Below, one piece after another: positions 1 through 9,240 of a stretch of 64,000 bases of DNA. The notes below the pieces were generated by a model. It was not told the DNA's origin and searched no databases. It worked only from the letters and a program-made list of their open reading frames with translations. Within the stretch, counting starts at the first letter, position 1, and each line of letters starts with the position of its first letter. Source of the stretch: Rhizobium anhuiense (GTDB taxonomy: Bacteria > Pseudomonadota > Alphaproteobacteria > Rhizobiales > Rhizobiaceae). A program made the position numbers and the translations under genes. The stretch lies in contig NZ_ML133522.1 of assembly GCF_003985145.1 (NCBI RefSeq), positions 620,001-684,000 on the forward strand, given 5' to 3'.

Positions 1-1079
1 CGGTCAAGGGCCAGTTTTGCGATCGCAGGCTGGGCGCTTCCCTTCAGGGAGCGCTCCAGTCCAGTCACTCCGGCTCCGCTCGCATCGCTCGCAGAACGCA
101 GACCGAGAGTTTTTTCGCCTGTGCTGTTGATCGCCACAACATTTCCGTCGGACATTGCGAGAAATCCAAAGCCGGACTGGGCCACTTTCACATTTTCAAC
201 AGTTTGCGCGAGCTGGTCGAGTGTGATGTCAGCACCGGCCGTCCCGGCGACATCCTTCCTGTCGGCGGTCCACAATGGCTGAAAGAAAGAAACGATCAGT
301 TTCCCGGTAATGGCGTCCGTATATGGCGCCGTCTGTGTTATATCGTCCGCGACCGGCCGCGTTTTCATGTCCTTGGCCCAGCCCTGCCAGGACTCGTAAA
401 GTCCGGGAAAAAAGAAGTCCCAGAAATTGGCCTCGTTGTGTCCGGGATAAAGGCGGTCGAAGGTCTGAGCCTGGTCGGTGTAGGGCGCCGTCCTGAAGAT
501 TGGGCGTTCTTTCGAGCCGATGAAATACATCTGCAGCTTCGAAGCACCGCGCTGCAGCAGGCTCGGCGCAACAAGGTCGAGAACCGCGCTGGTCTGGATA
601 TCGCTCTGGACGTCGGGCCTTGGCTGATGGTCTTGTCCGAGCAAGTAACCCCAAACGCTCACAACCGAGGCGGAGCCCGGAGCGTTCTGAGACCAGTTCG
701 TCTTCTGATCGTAGGACAGGCTGACGCTGCCGGGAGATGTGCGAGCGATCGCCGCGCCGACGTCGGAATTGCGCGCGGGATCGTCGATCTGCGCCTGGAG
801 CACCCCTGCCAAGGTGCCGACGTCGTTATGAACCTGCCGCAGGAGCAAACTTACCTGCGCCGCGGTCGAATCAGCATATGTGCGAATGTATTCCTGGCTT
901 GCCGCTTCAAGACCTTGGCCGACTTCGAGGGTTGCGTCGCGCGACAGTCTCTGAACGTTCCAAAGCGCCAGTCCACCGCTGACCAGCAAGTCAAAGAGAA
1001 CGGCTCCACCGACGACCAGGATGAACTTTGCCCGAAATGAGCCCAGTCTTGCCGGTCTTTTCGATGAGCGTGCGTCCAT
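1..1079 (-). CDS. Cache-domain membrane sensor, 3' part outside window
   Basis: Only the first 359 codons are in the window. A short basic N-terminus is followed by one transmembrane helix (about residues 19-41) and a long extracytoplasmic region. That region ends in the pattern typical of dCache sensors, PYTDAITGKLIVSFFQPLW followed by GTAGADITLDQL. The second membrane helix and the output domain lie beyond position 1. The ATG at 1079 shares one base with the stop of the STAS-methyltransferase gene (TGATG), so the two are probably translationally coupled. From the neighbours I infer a HAMP plus PP2C/SpoIIE phosphatase output, as in SiaA-type partner-switching systems. A chemoreceptor or cyclase output cannot be excluded. 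Confidence 0.8.
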   Translation of the reverse strand, partial: MDARSSKRPARLGSFRAKFILVVGGAVLFDLLVSGGLALWNVQRLSRDATLEVGQGLEAASQEYIRTYADSTAAQVSLLLRQVHNDVGTLAGVLQAQIDDPARNSDVGAAIARTSPGSVSLSYDQKTNWSQNAPGSASVVSVWGYLLGQDHQPRPDVQSDIQTSAVLDLVAPSLLQRGASKLQMYFIGSKERPIFRTAPYTDQAQTFDRLYPGHNEANFWDFFFPGLYESWQGWAKDMKTRPVADDITQTAPYTDAITGKLIVSFFQPLWTADRKDVAGTAGADITLDQLAQTVENVKVAQSGFGFLAMSDGNVVAINSTGEKTLGLRSASDASGAGVTGLERSLKGSAQPAIAKLALD

Positions 1080-2251
1080 CACAGCGGCTTTCGCCCGGAG
1101 GCCGCCCAGATGGGCCAGCCCGCATAACCCTTGGGGTGAAGAGCGGCAAAGACATGATCCTTGAATCCCTGCCGGAACCTGCGAATGAAATCTATTGAGT
1201 CGCCCCGCCGGACGGCCATCTCACCGGCGTAGACATTTTCCCAAGCTTCGATGACGTCTGCGAAGTCTTGGGGATCGCCGTCGAGGTTCGTCACCATAAA
1301 ACAATCCACCTTGATGTTGTCGAAGCCTGCATCGGCAAGGAGATGGCGGCTTTTCGGCCCCATCTCGACATCCATGTCGAAGTGGCTGAACAGTTTGGCG
1401 ACCTCCTCGTAAGTCCATTTTATCGTGTCAGCATGTGGCTCCCCAAGGCAATGAGAATTTTTTTCGTTGGTGATGTAGACGCGGCCGCCAGGCTTACAGA
1501 TGCGGTAAAGCTCCCGCAGGAGCATCTCGGGACGGTTGAAAATCTGCAGCGAATGACGGCAGGTCACAAAGTCGAATTGATTGTCTCGCAGCAACATTTG
1601 CGAGGCGTCGCCATAGGTGTACTCGATTCCCTGTAGATCGAAGTCGGTAGCGACCCTGCGCGCATATTCGAGGCTGCGCACCGAATGATCCAGCGCGACA
1701 AGGCGTGCCGGTTTGAATTCCCGTTGAACCAAGGCCGCGAAATCACCTATTCCACAACAGATATCGGCGATGGCAAGACCGTTACGCAGGCCGTGGCGCG
1801 GCAGCAGTTCGCGTTCATGTCGCCATGTCATTTTCGTCTGGGTGCGGAGAATGGGAATGAAAGTCTCATCCTCGACAAAGCTCTGGCCCGGATAGAATGC
1901 CGAATCGTAGACCTCGACCGACAAGTTTGGTTGTGACGCCGCAAGCGTTTGGAATAACGAGGTCGACCATGCCACCACGCTTGACGTAATGATGACGATC
2001 TTCCGTTCCGGCCTGGCCCGGCAGGTTGCCGCGAGGACATCCGACAGGGCAGAGAAGGCAGTCATGTTGATATGCGTCAGACGTTTGACGTTGAGGTAAA
2101 CGACCCCGCCGTATTTTTCCAAACTTTGCTGCACCAGTTCGAGAGCATCGCCAATCTCAGCGGCACTTTCGGGCCGCATCTTGCCAGACAGCACCAGCTC
2201 CTGATTTGTCGGATCAAAATAAACCGTGAAGGGTCGTAGCAGCAGGTTCAT
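1079..2251 (-). CDS. STAS-like domain fused to class I SAM methyltransferase
   Basis: 390 residues in two parts. Residues 1-115 have an anti-sigma-factor-antagonist (STAS, slr1659-like) pattern, with VVYLNVKRLTHINMTAFSAL in the place of the canonical beta strand and DSxG helix cap. Residues about 145-390 form a class I methyltransferase: motif I is DICCGIG (163-169), the acidic end of strand 2 is VALDHS, and ICKPGGRVYITNE matches the motif IV-V region. The usual phospho-acceptor Ser of DSxG is Met63 here, with Thr64 beside it. The ATG overlaps the upstream stop by four bases and the stop overlaps the next start. The substrate is unknown. I infer a methyltransferase whose activity or location is set by a phosphorylation-dependent partner switch. 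Confidence 0.82.
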   Translation of the reverse strand: MNLLLRPFTVYFDPTNQELVLSGKMRPESAAEIGDALELVQQSLEKYGGVVYLNVKRLTHINMTAFSALSDVLAATCRARPERKIVIITSSVVAWSTSLFQTLAASQPNLSVEVYDSAFYPGQSFVEDETFIPILRTQTKMTWRHERELLPRHGLRNGLAIADICCGIGDFAALVQREFKPARLVALDHSVRSLEYARRVATDFDLQGIEYTYGDASQMLLRDNQFDFVTCRHSLQIFNRPEMLLRELYRICKPGGRVYITNEKNSHCLGEPHADTIKWTYEEVAKLFSHFDMDVEMGPKSRHLLADAGFDNIKVDCFMVTNLDGDPQDFADVIEAWENVYAGEMAVRRGDSIDFIRRFRQGFKDHVFAALHPKGYAGWPIWAASGRKPL

Positions 2252-2769
2252 CGGAAGTCCTCGGCCGAGGGGAAATCCGCAATGATTTGAATCCCTTGTC
2301 CGCCGTCTTTCTCAATTCGGATAGCGGCGCGGAATATTGTTGCCAAATCGCTGAGCAAAACCGTCCCATCGGATTTCATGACCAAGTATCCAGACTCGGT
2401 ATCGGGGACAGGCAGATATTCGCCTGATCTCGCACCCGTTTGTTTGCGGCCAAATGCTTCCTCGTTGGGAAACGCAATTCTCAGCCGATTGAATGCTGCG
2501 CTCCGATAGAGACTGAAACGTATCCTTCCCAGCTCACCCGTTGAACGGAAAGCGAGTTCAATGAGCTCGTTGGCTGCGACGGAAAGAAAGTTCGAATATC
2601 GAGCGGGATCGTTGTGACCCTGGCCGAGAATGTCGGAGAGATATTCCGTGATCCTGTCGCAAAACTGCCATCGCGATTTGAACATGGCGGTATTCATTTC
2701 CAGCGATACCATCGGCGCAAATGCATGGTCATCGAAGCGAGATGCTTCCTTTTCCACTACACCCTCCAT
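2248..2769 (-). CDS. slr1658-like HATPase-fold regulator (putative partner-switch kinase)
   Basis: 173 residues. VAANELIELAFRST (about 64-77) resembles the N box of GHKL kinases such as anti-sigma factors and SiaB-like proteins, while the glycine boxes are degenerate. Cyanobacterial slr1658-type regulators sit next to slr1659-type STAS proteins, and the same pairing is seen here, which supports the assignment. The start is ambiguous. The ATG at 2769 lies inside the sequence ATGGAGGGTGTAGTG, so GGAGG could instead be the ribosome-binding site of the GTG at 2757. The stop overlaps the STAS-methyltransferase ATG as ATGA. Kinase activity is inferred, not shown. Confidence 0.75.
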   Translation of the reverse strand: MEGVVEKEASRFDDHAFAPMVSLEMNTAMFKSRWQFCDRITEYLSDILGQGHNDPARYSNFLSVAANELIELAFRSTGELGRIRFSLYRSAAFNRLRIAFPNEEAFGRKQTGARSGEYLPVPDTESGYLVMKSDGTVLLSDLATIFRAAIRIEKDGGQGIQIIADFPSAEDFR

Positions 2770-2814
2770 TCGTTTGTCCGGGGCGTCAGGTTGATTCCGA
2801 AAATCGATTGTTCA

Positions 2815-4467
2815 CTATGATAGCGCGTGGCTCAGGGATGTTTCGGCTCTGGCGAGGAACTCGCCAATTGCCTCGATCGGAAGCGGCCTGCTGACCAAGT
2901 AGCCTTGAAGCCTGTCGCAGCCCACGCCGCGCAACCATTCCGCCTGACCTGGCGTCTCGACCCCTTCCGCTGTCACCTGCATGTCGAGGTCATGGGCGAG
3001 GTTCACGATGCAGCGGACGATTGCCTGGCTTTTCAGATCGCTTTCGAGATCGGTGATGAAGTATTTGTCGATTTTGATCGTGTCGAAAGGGAATGTCTTC
3101 AGATAGCTGAGCGAAGAATATTCGGTGCCGAAGTCATCAAGCGAGATTCGTATCCCCAGCACGTTGAGCGTATTCAGGGTGTCGATGTTGTTGACGGTCC
3201 GCTCGAGCAGCACGCTTTCGGTTATCTCAAGCTCCAGACGGTCGGGCGGCAAGCCGACCAGGTCGAGCGTCTGGGAGACCCGATCGGTAAGGCCGCTGGT
3301 CAGGAATTCGGCCGCCGATAAATTGACGGCAACGATGTAGTTCTGCGGCCACTTCATCGCCTCGCGGCATGCCTGCTCTAAAACCCACGCTCCTATTTCC
3401 GGCATCATTCCATCGGCCTCGGCCATCGGAATAAATGCCGCCGGTGAAATTTTTCCAAGCAGGGGATGGTGCCATCTCAGCAATGCTTCAAAGCCGACAA
3501 CGCAGCCGCCCTCTGAGATGGGTTGGTATTCGACAGAGAACTGCTGCTGGGCCAAGGCCATGCGAAGGCTGCGGCGCAGCAGTTCGCGTTGCTCCAGCGA
3601 TTCAAGCATCGAGGGATCAAATGCTTTTGCCCGGCCGCGCCCGTCTTTCTTCGCGGCATAGAGCGCGAGATCGGACGCCTTCATCAGTTGCTCCGGACTT
3701 GCACCGTCCGATGGCGCGGTGGAAATGCCGATGCTGGTACCAACAAATACGGCAATGCCATCTATCGTGAAGGGCTTTTTGAATTCGGCAACCAGAACTT
3801 CTGCTAGCCACTGCCCCTTGGCCGGATGTCCCGAGCCCATGGAAATAACGGTGAATTCGTCACCCGCAAGTCGATAGGCTCTGTCATCGCTGGTCAGGCA
3901 GCCTTGAATACGCCTTGCCGCAAATTGAAGAACCTTGTCGCCGGCCGGATGCCCAAGCGTGTCGTTCACGGGCTTGAAATCGTCGAGGTCGAGCTGCATC
4001 AAAGACAGGGTCTCGTTCGCGCCTGCGGCCTCCTGCAGCAATACTGTGAGGTCCTCGCTGAACTGTCGTCGGTTCGGCAGTCCGGTCAGGGGATCATGGG
4101 TCGCCAGGTGCAGAAGGGTTGCACGCTCATCATCGAGACTTTCCTCGGAGCGCACCACGGCAAACAGATCTCCGATCCGATAGATCGTCAGTCCGCGCGA
4201 TCCCGGCTCGCCAAGATCGCCCGATATTCGCAAAGGCTGTGCACTGTCACCCAGGGAACGTAACGCAAGCGTAATCGCCGACTGGTCCAGTTCCGGAAAA
4301 TGCTCCCAAAAGGACGCTGCTGGTTTGACAGAAGCAGGCAGCTCATTGCCCAGCAAATTCTCGACGGGATTGAGATCGCGGTCAAAGAACAAAAGTCGGT
4401 CGATCGAACTCGAAGCCTCTGCCTCTGTTTTTCCGAGGGCCGAGTGGGCCGCACGAATTTTCCGCAT
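2815..4467 (-). CDS. diguanylate cyclase/phosphodiesterase (GGDEF-EAL)
   Basis: 550 residues, no membrane helix, so cytoplasmic. A PAS-like N-terminal segment (about 20-110) precedes a GGDEF domain (115-285) beginning THDPLTGLPNRR and an EAL domain (295-545). The cyclase signature is AGDEF (201-205), a variant that keeps activity in some cyclases. The phosphodiesterase side looks intact: EAL at 327-329, ITES near 415, DDFG at 444-447 and EGVET at 501-505. The loop-6 stretch reads DDFGTEYSS where GTGYSS is usual. It is the first gene of the minus-strand operon, 45 bp before the slr1658-like gene, so c-di-GMP turnover is probably tied to that switch. Confidence 0.9.
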   Translation of the reverse strand: MRKIRAAHSALGKTEAEASSSIDRLLFFDRDLNPVENLLGNELPASVKPAASFWEHFPELDQSAITLALRSLGDSAQPLRISGDLGEPGSRGLTIYRIGDLFAVVRSEESLDDERATLLHLATHDPLTGLPNRRQFSEDLTVLLQEAAGANETLSLMQLDLDDFKPVNDTLGHPAGDKVLQFAARRIQGCLTSDDRAYRLAGDEFTVISMGSGHPAKGQWLAEVLVAEFKKPFTIDGIAVFVGTSIGISTAPSDGASPEQLMKASDLALYAAKKDGRGRAKAFDPSMLESLEQRELLRRSLRMALAQQQFSVEYQPISEGGCVVGFEALLRWHHPLLGKISPAAFIPMAEADGMMPEIGAWVLEQACREAMKWPQNYIVAVNLSAAEFLTSGLTDRVSQTLDLVGLPPDRLELEITESVLLERTVNNIDTLNTLNVLGIRISLDDFGTEYSSLSYLKTFPFDTIKIDKYFITDLESDLKSQAIVRCIVNLAHDLDMQVTAEGVETPGQAEWLRGVGCDRLQGYLVSRPLPIEAIGEFLARAETSLSHALS

Positions 4468-4680: not shown

Positions 4681-5685
4681 TCAGGCGGTGATCCGATTTC
4701 GGAGCCTGCCTTCATCGAGCAATATTCTGACCGTCCGCGCTGCGTTTTGGCGCATCTCGACCGCGGCGTGATCGGAGTAAAAGGCATTGTGCGGGGTTAT
4801 CACCAACCGTCCCGCGAGCCAGTCTTCACGTTTGCGCCAGGCCGAAAGCAGCGGATGGTCGCCCGGCGGTTCCTGCATCAGCGTGTCAATCGCGGCCGCT
4901 GCCAGGTGGCCGCTTCTGAGGGACGCTTCAAGCGCATCGAGATCGTCAATAAGTTCGCCGCGCGCCGTATTGACCAAAATGGCTCCGGGTTTCATCCGGG
5001 CAAGTCCGTTGGCGTCGAGCATGCCGCGTGTCTCCTCCGTGGCTGGACAGTGGAGCGTGAGGATATCCGAGCGCGCGAAAAGATCGCCCGCATTGTCGAC
5101 ACGCTCGTATCCCATCGCCTTTTCGTGACCAGGCGGTTGGCCGGGATCATAGCCGAGGATGCGAAAGCCGAAGGGCTTCAGGCGGTTGACGACCGCCGTT
5201 CCGATCCGTCCGACACCGACGACGCCCACAGTGGCCCGGTTTGAACGGGAAAGCGGCTTGAGGCTGTGGACTTGCCATCCGGATCGATAGCCACGGGCGC
5301 GGGCATCATGTTCCCAGAGCCGTCTTTGCAGGGACAGGATCATCGCGACCGCGTGGTCGGCAACTTCCTCGGTGCCATAATCCGGGTTGTTGGCGAAGGG
5401 GATGCCGGCGGCCGCCAAGGCCTCGATATCGATCTTCTCGTAACCGACGCCGTAACGCACGACGCCCCGGCAGCGGGTCAAATGCGCGATGCTTCGCGGC
5501 CCGAGCCGTGCGCCCCAGACCATCAGGGCATCGAGCCGGGCGAGGCGATCGGCAGCGAAAAGCGTTTCATCCGTGGTGGCGAAGAAGTCGATCTCGACAT
5601 CCTGGCCGAGCACCTCGGCCTCGAGGTCCGGAGAGCCGATCATGTGGTCGGTGATTCCGACCACATATTTTCTCTGTTCTGTCAT
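4681..5685 (-). CDS. D-2-hydroxyacid dehydrogenase, C-terminal-binding-protein type
   Basis: 334 residues from the ATG at 5685 (MTEQRKYVVGITD). An in-frame ATG at 5748 would overlap the upstream gene and adds a non-conserved tail, so the shorter start is preferred; neither has a convincing ribosome-binding site. The Rossmann motif is VVGVGRIG. The catalytic Arg, Glu and His are in NTARGELID, MQEPPGDHP and ITPHNAFYS. The family reduces 2-oxoacids with NADH or NADPH. It is the last gene of a minus-strand run following a ketopantoate-reductase-like gene, and may handle a keto acid released during organosulfur breakdown; that role is inferred. Confidence 0.88.
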   Translation of the reverse strand: MTEQRKYVVGITDHMIGSPDLEAEVLGQDVEIDFFATTDETLFAADRLARLDALMVWGARLGPRSIAHLTRCRGVVRYGVGYEKIDIEALAAAGIPFANNPDYGTEEVADHAVAMILSLQRRLWEHDARARGYRSGWQVHSLKPLSRSNRATVGVVGVGRIGTAVVNRLKPFGFRILGYDPGQPPGHEKAMGYERVDNAGDLFARSDILTLHCPATEETRGMLDANGLARMKPGAILVNTARGELIDDLDALEASLRSGHLAAAAIDTLMQEPPGDHPLLSAWRKREDWLAGRLVITPHNAFYSDHAAVEMRQNAARTVRILLDEGRLRNRITA

Positions 5686-5722
5686 TCGGAGGAAGAGCCG
5701 CCTTGAATTGTTGATCCCTTGG

Positions 5723-6700
5723 TCATGCCAACCGTCCCACCTCTTCAATGCTCAGCGAACCCGGCTTGCCTCCATCGCGTGCGAGTTTTGCCGCCGCTCG
5801 TTGAAAGGCCGCGTTGAGGGGTGCGGCCACGCCGTGAAGACGTCCGAGCCGCACGATCTCACCGTTCAGGTAGTCAACTTCACTTGACGTGCCGCGCACG
5901 AAGCTCTGCCATGTCGATTGCTGGCCGCGTTCGATGCCGCTGTCTTCGGCGACGCGCCAGCCTGATATGTCGATCGCCCGTTCCGAAGGGGCCGCCAGAT
6001 CGTATCCCGCCGCCTTCAGGACGGTGCGCGCTTCTTCTGCCAATTCGGCGCCGGCTTTTGCGCGCACCTCCGGTGTGCCGGCGAAAAGCTCGACTGCGTT
6101 AGTCGCATTGTGCTGCAGTTTGGCGGCCTTCCAGCGGCGGATGTCTGCACGCGCTTCGGCCAGATATCCCGCCTTCGTCAGGTCGGAGACAACAGCCGAT
6201 GCGGTATCGTCCAATCCGTGCGGATAGCGTCCGAGCGTGACAATGCCGACATTCGGTTCACCGCCGACGACGACCTCACCGGTCACGGTATAGCGCGCGG
6301 GAATGAGAATACTGGCCGCATAAACACGATGGAAGCGTCGCAGCGCGATATCCTCGGCCGCCAGCCCGTTTTGGAGCGTGACCAGCGGCAGATCGGATGC
6401 GAGACCTGCGCCATCCACATCGCGCCAGGCCCAGAAATCGGTTGCCGCTTCGACATCCTGCGCCTTGACTGTGAGGATCAGGATATCGTCCGGCTTCAGA
6501 ACGGGCGGCGTTGCGGTGTCGACCGCATTGAGCTGAACCACCCGGGTTTCCCTCGGGCGGCGATAGGAAAGGCCATGGGCGGCGATATGAGCGATCTGAG
6601 CGCCGCGTCCCACCAGAACGTAAGGAATGTCGTGGGTTTCGAACTCGGCGGCAAGGCTTGCGCCGACCGCGCCGGCGCCGATGATGATGTAGCGTGTCAT
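5723..6700 (-). CDS. ketopantoate reductase-family (PanE/ApbA-like) oxidoreductase
   Basis: 325 residues. The N-terminal NADP-binding motif IIIGAGAVGASL, Lys79 in LTVKAQDV, LQNGLAAED, the KLQHNATNAV helix with the putative catalytic Lys, and SEVDYLNGEIV near the C-terminus are all hallmarks of the PanE/ApbA fold. Genomes normally carry panE elsewhere, and this copy sits in a catabolic cluster. A role in reducing a pathway-specific 2-keto compound is therefore more likely than pantothenate synthesis; that is inference. It lies 77 bp after the acyl-CoA-dehydrogenase-like gene and 37 bp before the preferred start of the D-2-hydroxyacid dehydrogenase. Confidence 0.88.
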   Translation of the reverse strand: MTRYIIIGAGAVGASLAAEFETHDIPYVLVGRGAQIAHIAAHGLSYRRPRETRVVQLNAVDTATPPVLKPDDILILTVKAQDVEAATDFWAWRDVDGAGLASDLPLVTLQNGLAAEDIALRRFHRVYAASILIPARYTVTGEVVVGGEPNVGIVTLGRYPHGLDDTASAVVSDLTKAGYLAEARADIRRWKAAKLQHNATNAVELFAGTPEVRAKAGAELAEEARTVLKAAGYDLAAPSERAIDISGWRVAEDSGIERGQQSTWQSFVRGTSSEVDYLNGEIVRLGRLHGVAAPLNAAFQRAAAKLARDGGKPGSLSIEEVGRLA

Positions 6701-6777
6701 GTTCGTCCACTGCGAGTTGGCCGGGGGGCCGAAGGGGAAGGTGGGAAGGTCATCAGGTGAGGTCCGTCCCCGTCGCG

Positions 6778-7959
6778 TCAGGCTGTTTTAAGGACGGGGA
6801 CGCCTGTCGAATAGCTCGATAGGGCGGTCTCATCCCGGTTCCACCGGTCGAAGGCGGCGCGCCCCAGAATGGAAATCGATACGTCTTCCTGCGGAGCATG
6901 GACGAGCACGGACTGGATGTCCCGGAAATGCCGTTCAAGCCCCAGGTCGGCGCTCAGGCCCGGATTGCCGATGCCGCGCACCGCGATCTGGACTGCCTCG
7001 CGCAACTGCCGGCCGGCAATGAGCCGGGCTCTTATGAATTTTTCCGCGTCACTTTGGCCGGCTTCGAGCGCGCCAAAAATGATCTGGCGGGCGCCGGAGA
7101 CAAGCAGGTCGATTTCGCCCGAAAGCGTCACGAAACGCTCCGTGCGGGCAATGGGATGGCCGAGATTGGTCGGCACCCGCTCATGCGCGAAGCGGATGAA
7201 GGCGGCCTGCGCGGCTTCCGCCACGCCGAGATAGAGCGCGGTCAGCGCCAGCGTGAGCGCCGCATGGGCGCGATTGTCCTGTTGGGCAACTGTGGCGTCG
7301 GTGAGATCAAGCACGTCCTCTGCCGGGATCTCGACGTCGGTATATTCGACGTCGTGCGAACCTGTGGCGCGCATGCCGAGGCTGCTCCAGTTTTCGATCA
7401 CGCGAATGCCAGGCAGTCCATTCGGCACGACGAAGGTTCCAACCCGCGTTGGGGTTTCATCGGTATGCGCCCAGACGAGGAAATGCGTGAGACCATCCGC
7501 GCCGGTGACGAAGCGCTTGCGACCGGTGATCGACCAGCCGTTGGCCGTGCGGCGGGCGCGCGTTGCCGGCAGACCGCCGCGCGCCGGCGACCCCAGTTCC
7601 GGCTCGACGCGGGCGGCGTTGAGCAGCAGCGGACGCTGCTTTCCCTCCGCCAGCAGCCTGATGTAGAGATCTTCCGGCCAATGGTTTTTTCCGGCCTGGC
7701 CGAGATGGTTGAAAATTGTCATGGCGCTGATGAGCGCGACCGACGGATCGCCTCGCCCGAGGGCGGCTAGGATGTGAGCCGTGTCGGCAAGGTTGGCACC
7801 TCCTCCGCCGTAGCGGACGGCGACAGTGCTTTCCAGAAGGCCGCTTTCATGAACGGCACGAATGCCCGTCCATGGAAACTGACCGGTACGATCCGCTTCC
7901 GGAGCGGCCTCGGCTAGAACCCGCGCGGTTGCGTTCAGGACGCTTGTGTCATGGGGCAT
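6778..7959 (-). CDS. acyl-CoA dehydrogenase-family flavoprotein (SfnB/DszC-like)
   Basis: 393 residues with the three-part acyl-CoA dehydrogenase layout: a helical N-terminus containing AVRYGGGGANLADTAHILAAL, a central beta domain with WSITGRKRFVTGADG and SLGMRATGSHDVEYTDVEIP, and a C-terminal four-helix domain. The general base Glu of true acyl-CoA dehydrogenases is not evident, as in flavin monooxygenases of the DszC/SfnB group. AGAAGG lies 10 bases before the ATG. Location next to two luciferase-like monooxygenases matches sulfone or sulfonate utilisation clusters, where such proteins act as FMNH2-dependent monooxygenases. The substrate is unknown. Confidence 0.88.
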   Translation of the reverse strand: MPHDTSVLNATARVLAEAAPEADRTGQFPWTGIRAVHESGLLESTVAVRYGGGGANLADTAHILAALGRGDPSVALISAMTIFNHLGQAGKNHWPEDLYIRLLAEGKQRPLLLNAARVEPELGSPARGGLPATRARRTANGWSITGRKRFVTGADGLTHFLVWAHTDETPTRVGTFVVPNGLPGIRVIENWSSLGMRATGSHDVEYTDVEIPAEDVLDLTDATVAQQDNRAHAALTLALTALYLGVAEAAQAAFIRFAHERVPTNLGHPIARTERFVTLSGEIDLLVSGARQIIFGALEAGQSDAEKFIRARLIAGRQLREAVQIAVRGIGNPGLSADLGLERHFRDIQSVLVHAPQEDVSISILGRAAFDRWNRDETALSSYSTGVPVLKTA

Positions 7960-8073
7960 GTCGTTGAAGCCTTCTGATGGAAGCCCGAGCGATATCCTCC
8001 GACGCGATGAAGACAGCGTCGCCTGCTCGTTCTGGGATTGAATGCATGGTCCAACCGTACCGGACCGTGATCA

Positions 8074-9177
8074 TCAGGCGGCCGTCTTCTTTTTGGTCTC
8101 TTCTCGCTCGCGGATGCCGTCACGCACCAGCGGCAGGATGTAGCGGCCATAATCGACGGCATCGTTGTAATTGTCGTAGCCGCGGATCGAGATCAGGTCG
8201 GCACCAAGATCGATATAATCGAGGATGGAATCAGCGATGGTGCGTGGCGAACCCACCAGCGCGGTGGTGGCGCCGCTGGCATTGGTGGCGGTTACTGTCG
8301 GATACCACAGGGCGCGGTCCTGCACATGGCCGCGTGCAGCAATGTCCAGCAGCCGCTGAGAGCCAACATTGGCCGGACGCGGAGCCGAAAGCGGCGCACG
8401 GCTCAAACCTTTCTCGCGGTTCTCGTTCAGCCGGTCCAGAACCTTATGTGCCTTCGCCCAGGCCAATTCGTCGGTCTCGGCCACGATCGGCCGGAAGGTG
8501 ACCCAGATGCGCGGGCGATCCGTGCGGCCAGCCTTGGCGGCTTCGTCGTAAATCCGGTCGATCTGCTGCTTGGTTTCAGCAAGCGGCTCACCCCATAGGC
8601 CGAAGATATCGCACAGCGAACCGCCGATCCGGTAAGCCGCATCCGACGAGCCGCCGAGCGAGATGGGGATGAGGCCCCTGGTGGGACGCACGGCGCTGCG
8701 GAACTGCTTGAACTGATAATACTTCCCATCGAAATCAAAGGGTTCGGTCGACGTCCAGGCCAGACGCAAGATGCGAATATATTCCTCCTGCCGCTCGTAA
8801 CGCTCTTCCTTATTGAGGAAGTCGCCTTCACGCGCCTGCTCCTCGTCGCTGCCGCCGGCGATGAAGTGAACGACGACGCGCCCGCCGCTCAACTGATCGA
8901 GCGTCGCCAACGATTTCGCCGCAACCGTCGGATAGACCGTGTTCGGACGTAGGGCGACGATGATGCTGAGCTTTTTCGTATGTGCGAGGATCGTCGCTCC
9001 AAGCGTGAACGGATCGAAGGAGGACGAGGAATAGGGGATCAGCGTGTAGTTGAAGCCGTAATCGTCGAGCGCCCGTGCGTATCGCTCCAGAAAACGCGCA
9101 TCGACCGGCGCGTCGGGAATAGGGTTGAGGTCATTGGAGGCATTGGCGAAGCTTGCGCTGATGAATTCCGTGGCCAT
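8074..9177 (-). CDS. LLM-class flavin-dependent monooxygenase (SsuD-like)
   Basis: 367 residues from the ATG at 9177, chosen because GGGAGA lies nine bases upstream; an in-frame ATG at 9207 lacks this. The bacterial luciferase/alkanesulfonate monooxygenase barrel is clear: LDDYGFNYTLIPYSSSS, IVALRPNTVYPTVAAKSLAT, LSGGRVVVHFIAGGSDEEQ and the phosphate-loop region SLGGSSDAAY. Such enzymes use FMNH2 and oxygen to cleave C-S or related bonds. The 39-bp shared element begins 64 bp upstream, so this gene probably starts its own transcript running through the next three genes. A separate flavin reductase is not present in the cluster. Confidence 0.92.
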   Translation of the reverse strand: MATEFISASFANASNDLNPIPDAPVDARFLERYARALDDYGFNYTLIPYSSSSFDPFTLGATILAHTKKLSIIVALRPNTVYPTVAAKSLATLDQLSGGRVVVHFIAGGSDEEQAREGDFLNKEERYERQEEYIRILRLAWTSTEPFDFDGKYYQFKQFRSAVRPTRGLIPISLGGSSDAAYRIGGSLCDIFGLWGEPLAETKQQIDRIYDEAAKAGRTDRPRIWVTFRPIVAETDELAWAKAHKVLDRLNENREKGLSRAPLSAPRPANVGSQRLLDIAARGHVQDRALWYPTVTATNASGATTALVGSPRTIADSILDYIDLGADLISIRGYDNYNDAVDYGRYILPLVRDGIREREETKKKTAA

Positions 9178-9240
9178 GTGAGCGTTTCTCCCGGGGTTGC
9201 CGAACATGCCTTCACGTTATGGCGTGACAAATCCCATAGG

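Follow-up and report, generated by a model that had tools for sequence, protein, structure and literature searches.

The window analyzed here, a 64,000-nucleotide stretch of the Rhizobium anhuiense genome (contig NZ_ML133522.1; G000:C2:620001-684000 in our coordinates), carries at its left edge the first part of a six-gene minus-strand operon, g1 to g6, which continues leftward beyond the window (Table 1). Gene order, the presence of a single SpoIIE-type phosphatase gene on S. meliloti pSymB and in an S. medicae genome, and linkage to bgsA indicate that the operon is very probably the Rhizobium orthologue of bgrRSTUWV from Sinorhizobium meliloti. A first-pass annotation, made from the window's letters, knew of no description of this combination of a cyclic di-GMP (c-di-GMP) enzyme, an slr1658/slr1659-like pair, and a methyltransferase; the operon as such is probably already published in S. 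meliloti. Added here are a degenerate kinase/STAS pair (g2 and the N-terminal domain of g3), the constancy of the methyltransferase fused to that STAS domain, and the exchangeability of the first gene; no account of any of the three was recognized among the literature matches listed, the original bgr paper lying outside that search.

The four minus-strand open reading frames (ORFs) that the first-pass annotation placed at positions 1–4467 and interpreted as a four-gene switch are real, and the overlaps it reported can be read directly from the sequence (ATGA between g2 and g3 at 2251–2248, TGATG between g3 and g4 at 1081–1077). The operon, however, has six genes: g5 and g6, just outside the window, are probably the functional kinase and the STAS protein on which it acts, and the window itself holds what is, by its motifs, a degenerate pair. 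The left flank completes the Cache protein g4 with a HAMP domain and a SpoIIE phosphatase domain, the ending that the first-pass annotation had proposed to look for (Pfam: SpoIIE, 131.4 bits; HAMP, 45.9 bits; dCache, 34.2 bits, below its cutoff of 45), and with this output found, a chemoreceptor assignment was rejected. On the slr1658_superfam model (NF047703, cutoff 100), g5 scores 167.4 bits as a 207-residue ORF from TTG (186 residues from ATG; 167.5 bits in a second scan), whereas g2 reaches only 18.6 bits; all 45 aligned g2 orthologues nevertheless match that model at E values up to 1 (best 3.5e-10). Likewise, g6 passes the slr1659_superfam cutoff (NF047705; 120.6 bits, cutoff 100), which the N-terminal STAS domain of g3, at 37.4–40.7 bits, does not. 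The C-terminal part of g3 matches Methyltransf_11 (Pfam, 68.1 bits).

Comparison of 127 loci shows the operon genes in a single order and strand in every one, as far as each locus extends, so that the genes are indeed kept together in other rhizobia, as the reading in the first-pass annotation required. Nearly all of these loci were picked by a g2 or g3 match (L058 by DNA likeness), and the constancy of g2 and g3 is thus partly selection. A scan of genome contigs yielded 264 encoded relatives of g3, and the best 80 of the 264 were retrieved. Six repeats were removed from the 127 to give 121 g3 sequences; related strains are counted separately unless stated, motif counts fall to 118 or 119 where genes are cut, and orthologue starts were set by script. 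g5 and g6 are absent solely from L047, L052, and L112, whose sequence stops at a contig end. Median intergenic gaps are 58 bases (g1–g2), −4 (g2–g3), −4 (g3–g4), 4 (g4–g5), and 14 (g5–g6). The conserved g2–g6 order is well beyond chance, and genes 2–6 are the constant core.

The original account of bgrRSTUWV is reportedly that of Baena et al. 2019 (Environ Microbiol 21:3379, doi 10.1111/1462-2920.14624), known to us through papers that cite it. Excerpts of these papers describe a switch for mixed-linkage glucan in which the phosphatase BgrU and the kinase BgrW together set BgrV and, through it, the diguanylate cyclase BgrR (PMC7647112; PMC8457831); the switch set is written “BgrSTUWV” beside BgrR (PMC8457831). 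As so described, the phosphatase-kinase-STAS order of U-W-V is that of g4-g5-g6 and R corresponds to g1, and a syntenic six-gene operon sits on pSymB of S. meliloti 1021 (458865–465606). Within the scope of a comparison made via citing papers only, the two are apparently the same system. A search confined to pSymB of strain 1021 gave one SpoIIE match, in this operon, and the S. medicae genome behind locus L137 and the window's own genome each have one SpoIIE match, again in this operon.

The window's own genome also encodes a BgsA orthologue (G000:C9:197696-199699, 78% identity). The reference for this comparison was the glycosyltransferase ORF at pSymB 403635–405644, chosen by eye among the ORFs and taken as bgsA; g1 starts at 458865 on the same replicon. 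The spacing between the two suits SMb20447, the presumed tag of bgrR; no paper was found for SMb20447 or SMb20448–20452. bgsA itself is tagged SM_b20391 in an excerpt of PMC9495663. Of 199 Rhizobiaceae genomes, 9 encode a bgsA orthologue (at least 66% identity), and every one of these belongs to the 22 with g2 (hypergeometric p of 4e-10, uncorrected for kinship), and bgsA lies within the fetched flank in 8/127 loci. With respect to the first gene, bgsA is found in 11 of 21 genomes with g1 versus none of 20 without it (Fisher, 1.6e-4).

Several observations count against the identification, or against glucan as the only target. A second SpoIIE match is present in three of the nine genomes examined; the association between g1 and bgsA is confounded by kinship, with only two independent pairs; and 2 of the 11 bgsA matches contain an in-frame stop. 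Furthermore, 10 of the 21 genomes with g1 have no bgsA, and glucan therefore cannot be the sole target.

The window's slr1658-like protein, g2, had been read as the kinase of the switch, but a working kinase was rejected because the ATP-site asparagine is missing in 121/121 sequences. The NExxxN form of the N-box is found in none of the 121 g2 proteins versus all 118 g5 proteins; g2 keeps the NE of the N-box, including the catalytic glutamate, in 121/121, and the column of the metal-binding asparagine is occupied by Leu (43), Met (26), Val (22), Thr (18), Ile (10), Phe (1), or Ala (1). No aligned glycine loop was found in the 121 g2 sequences, a GxG[LIM]G string occurring in one, whereas the SGLG loop columns of g5 are kept in 117–118 of 118 (101/118 fit the stricter [GAS]SGLG). 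The g2 AF2 (AlphaFold2) model (mean predicted local distance difference test score, pLDDT, 75.8) resembles anti-sigma kinase structures (VIA): a chain of the UsfX-RsfB entry (Z 12.9, root-mean-square deviation (rmsd) 2.6 over 122 residues), SpoIIAB and an RsbV/RsbW entry (Z 11.7 each), and a chain of the SiaB-SiaC entry (Z 9.2). A sequence search of the PDB with the g2 profile gave one chance match (E 0.25). In g2 the fold appears to persist while the ATP site is lost, and the protein is a predicted pseudokinase. Of 119 g4 sequences, 118 retain the PP2C motifs GGD[YF][YF]D and D[VI][TAS]GHG (a third pattern, perhaps too strict, matches 84).

The proposed STAS partner of g2, in g3, is altered as well. 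We take the first Ser/Thr position of the aligned motif to be the phosphosite, as in SpoIIAA. The SiaC phosphosite motif N67-T68-S69, in an excerpt of PMC8457831, is a further basis for this assignment. The g6 motif NSSG is present in 118/118, whereas the corresponding columns of the 121 g3 sequences read Asn in all, then Asn 67, Met 37, Ser 8, Ala 4, and Leu, Arg, Gly, Val, and Gln once each, then Thr 96, Val 14, Ile 4, Leu 3, Met 2, and Ala 2, and finally Ala in all; 113/121 have no Ser/Thr at the usual phosphosite. On these motifs, we propose the degenerate pair as a phosphorylation-independent second output of the switch. Against this stands the threonine beside the lost site in 96/121: only 24/121 lack Ser/Thr at both positions, and most g3 proteins may therefore still be phosphorylated.

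The same threonine, present in 37/37 rows of alignment A3, is what an ordinary second phosphorylation switch would call for, with g2 or g5 phosphorylating T64 of g3, g4 dephosphorylating it, and the methyltransferase switched directly. The catalytic glutamate that every g2 retains fits such a switch too, and divergence patterns are also compatible with it. Among 53 thinned operons, whose pairwise distances were compared, g2 divergence is most closely tied to that of the STAS domain in g3 (partial r 0.71 versus 0.51–0.53 for PP2C, g5, and g6), which hints weakly at a g2–g3 partnership; however, g3 STAS divergence tracks g5 as well as it tracks g2 (both 0.707), and the highest co-divergence is that of PP2C with g5 (0.75), both of which detract from that hint. 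Since the metal-binding asparagine and an aligned glycine loop are lacking throughout g2, and 25/121 g3 proteins have no threonine at the T64 position, we consider a second phosphorylation switch improbable.

The methyltransferase and the linker before it are the most conserved parts measured, with median identities to the window copy of 79% and 86%, respectively, whereas the STAS domain of g3 reaches 44% and g2 27%; the other parts range from 20% (g1 N terminus) to 74%. An S-adenosylmethionine (SAM) motif I pattern is found in 119/121 g3 proteins. The domain has profile matches to 3mgg and others, and it shares the fold of small-molecule methyltransferases such as UbiG (VIA Z 14.9; 174 residues aligned at rmsd 3.4). 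Confidence in the g3 model is moderate (mean pLDDT 65.9; predicted template modeling score, pTM, 0.47), and for this reason nothing is claimed on the g3 linker or domain arrangement. A role as part of glucan synthesis was rejected: 30 of the 41 genomes with g2 have no bgsA orthologue, and g3 is present in 127/127 loci.

Both the gap in conservation between the methyltransferase and its STAS domain and the UbiG-like fold would suit a housekeeping or biosynthetic enzyme that is not under the switch, the STAS domain being a docking or dimerization relic. Yet the enzyme is fused to a STAS domain and placed between two switch genes, with a median gap of −4 on both sides, in every locus, a count to be read with the caveat that loci with the switch alone would hardly appear in a set fetched by g2 or g3. 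On balance an enzyme outside the switch seems unlikely, and we continue to favor a methyltransferase that is an output of it.

By contrast with this constant core, the c-di-GMP enzyme is not the fixed part that the first-pass annotation assumed. g1 is found in 107/127 loci and missing from 20. Where it is present its motifs are intact, with [AGS]GDEF in 101/101 unique g1 orthologues and an EAL-type motif in 100/101. In 16/127 loci the place of g1 is taken by a gene that is transcribed divergently and has a SpoIIE match (Pfam run on three of them), and the remaining four loci without g1 (L166, L167, L170, and L172) have no divergent PP2C gene either; Pfam searches of the upstream ORFs of L166, L170, and L172 gave a peptidase-family gene in two and no match in one. 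The divergent PP2C ORFs have 297–404 codons in the 11 loci printed, with an N-terminal part that looks coiled-coil-like by eye; a GEAVEDQLA stretch occurs in 8 of the 11 printed proteins, the other 3 being printed from an internal Met. On a g3 tree of 40 genomes (of the 41, one was left out because a contig end truncates its g3), the three first-gene states need at least five changes, many inner branches being weak. Because the first gene is exchanged or absent among loci, the c-di-GMP enzyme is accessory rather than core.

Searching with g2 gave matches in 22 of 199 family genomes, and a g2 profile found it in 21/397 genomes of the order, 4/385 of the class, and 6/299 of the phylum, samples that overlap and each contain the window's own genome. 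The three matches beyond the order in these samples all fall within one family of the class. The slr1659 cutoff is passed by 2 of 142 class genomes, the window's own and one of the three from outside the order, and both carry the module. In S. meliloti GR4 a g2 relative is found at NC_019848.2:1223702-1224157, and a second replicon carries a g2–g6 operon (NC_019849.2:1289981-1294952) that is 98.1% identical to the L034 operon.

Like the rhizobial operon, Pseudomonas SiaABCD groups in a single operon a HAMP-PP2C phosphatase and a GHKL-type kinase with a STAS-fold target and a GGDEF enzyme, according to an excerpt of PMC7647112. The first-pass annotation had accordingly proposed a single SiaABCD-like switch, with the window's slr1658-like protein as the kinase for both c-di-GMP turnover and the methyltransferase. 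Partner switching, its underlying idea, remains the best reading, and the conserved operon with its SiaA-like HAMP-PP2C protein and SiaD-like GGDEF domain agrees with the proposal, but the curated NCBIfam cutoffs are not reached by g4 (118.9 bits against 700, SiaA), g5 (21.6 against 85, SiaB family), or g1 (100.8 against 290, SiaD), and SiaABCD membership was rejected on these models. SiaC (DUF1987, PF09345) is not matched by g6, whose only Pfam matches are to STAS and STAS_2, both under cutoff, and g3 gives 12.9 bits on the SiaC model (cutoff 24.5). The rhizobial operon differs further in that g1 also carries EAL and in its extra pseudokinase and STAS-methyltransferase. Given also that g2 has no ATP-site asparagine, that genes for an intact kinase and an unfused STAS protein lie downstream, and that one locus in about six has no g1, the SiaABCD-like version with g2 as kinase is very unlikely.

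The superfamily models of the cyanobacterial slr1658 and slr1659 families are passed by g5 and g6, and Nostoc HmpU/W/V shares the phosphatase-kinase-STAS logic in an excerpt of PMC8256260. No fused methyltransferase or c-di-GMP gene is noted for slr1658/slr1659 or HmpU/V/W in excerpts of that literature, the genomes themselves being outside the search. For slr1658 the excerpts describe an iron-recovery and Pgr5 phenotype, and no mechanism applicable to the rhizobial operon. A literature search on partner switching with STAS, methyltransferase, and PP2C gave only a Vibrio stressosome paper, judged by its title.

The explanation that we favor, and regard as reasonably probable, is a bgr-orthologue switch with the degenerate g2/g3 pair as a second output. 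The membrane-bound Cache-HAMP sensor would control the PP2C phosphatase of g4, which together with the g5 kinase would set the phosphorylation of g6 at the serine of NSSG, and g6 would act on the GGDEF-EAL enzyme g1, as excerpts of the citing papers report for BgrV and BgrR. In place of a kinase, g2 may bind the STAS domain of g3, holding or placing the methyltransferase. The phosphorylation state of g6 would then decide whether g3 is free, by competition for g2 or via g5: unphosphorylated g6 may compete for g2 or otherwise free g3, so that one signal would reach both c-di-GMP and a methylation reaction. We further put forward, tentatively and as possible rather than probable, that the methyltransferase, not c-di-GMP, is the constant output, that the state of the working kinase/STAS pair is read, independently of phosphorylation, by a pair made up of an anti-sigma-fold protein without kinase activity and a STAS-methyltransferase that mostly cannot be phosphorylated, and that Rhizobiaceae recruited the GGDEF-EAL enzyme, an exchangeable addition, to control glucan.

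Should the identification be correct, a c-di-GMP switch known from work on one rhizobium occurs in many Rhizobiales and in one or more families beyond the order, and the enzyme conserved best in it is other than the c-di-GMP enzyme. Strains naturally devoid of the GGDEF-EAL gene would offer a clean route to the role of the methyltransferase, and the joint loss of ATP site and phosphosite could serve as a test case for dead kinases as readers in partner switches.

Table 1. Coordinates of the operon genes, their diagnostic motifs, and the divergent PP2C genes found at other loci (window positions count from the first letter of the window; C2 is the window's contig)
Feature	Window position	Other coordinates	Strand	Description
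g1	2815..4467		-	GGDEF-EAL protein, 550 aa; Pfam GGDEF 147.4 bits, EAL 241.1 bits; exchangeable first gene; probably bgrR-like
g2	2248..2769		-	173-aa slr1658-related GHKL-fold protein; predicted pseudokinase
g2 N-box remnant NELIEL	2554..2571		-	General-base Glu retained, metal-binding Asn replaced by Leu
g3	1079..2251		-	390 aa; slr1659-like STAS (~1907-2251) fused to class I SAM methyltransferase (~1079-1801)
g3 STAS N62-M63-T64	2060..2068		-	Aligned to g6 NSS phosphosite motif (joint alignment, 121 g3 and 118 g6)
g4, N-terminal Cache part	1..1082	continues leftward to G000:C2:618722	-	ORF open at window edge
g4, whole		L009:12722-15082	-	786-aa Cache-HAMP-PP2C protein
g5		C2:618157-618717 (L009:12157-12717)	-	slr1658 kinase (predicted); outside window, after g4
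g6		C2:617811-618149 (L009:11811-12149)	-	112-aa slr1659 STAS protein; outside window, after g5
Divergent PP2C genes		L048:9754-10746, L056:9658-10632, L179:6990-7967, and 13 similar in other loci		Divergent from core operon

Adjoining g1, window positions 4681–9207 hold genes for a 2-hydroxyacid dehydrogenase and for ketopantoate-reductase-like, acyl-CoA-dehydrogenase-like, and luciferase-like monooxygenase proteins. The operon of Rhizobium sp. CC-CFT758 is followed by a gene for cellulose synthase (L035:15858-18014), which is bcsA by annotation and gives only 238 bits to BgsA. A second c-di-GMP protein, with MHYT, PAS, GGDEF, and EAL domains, is encoded on the plus strand about 1.2 kb past g6 (L009:7784-10594; G000:C2:613784-616594), and in 9/127 loci a GGDEF-EAL gene lies downstream of g6 in the opposite orientation.

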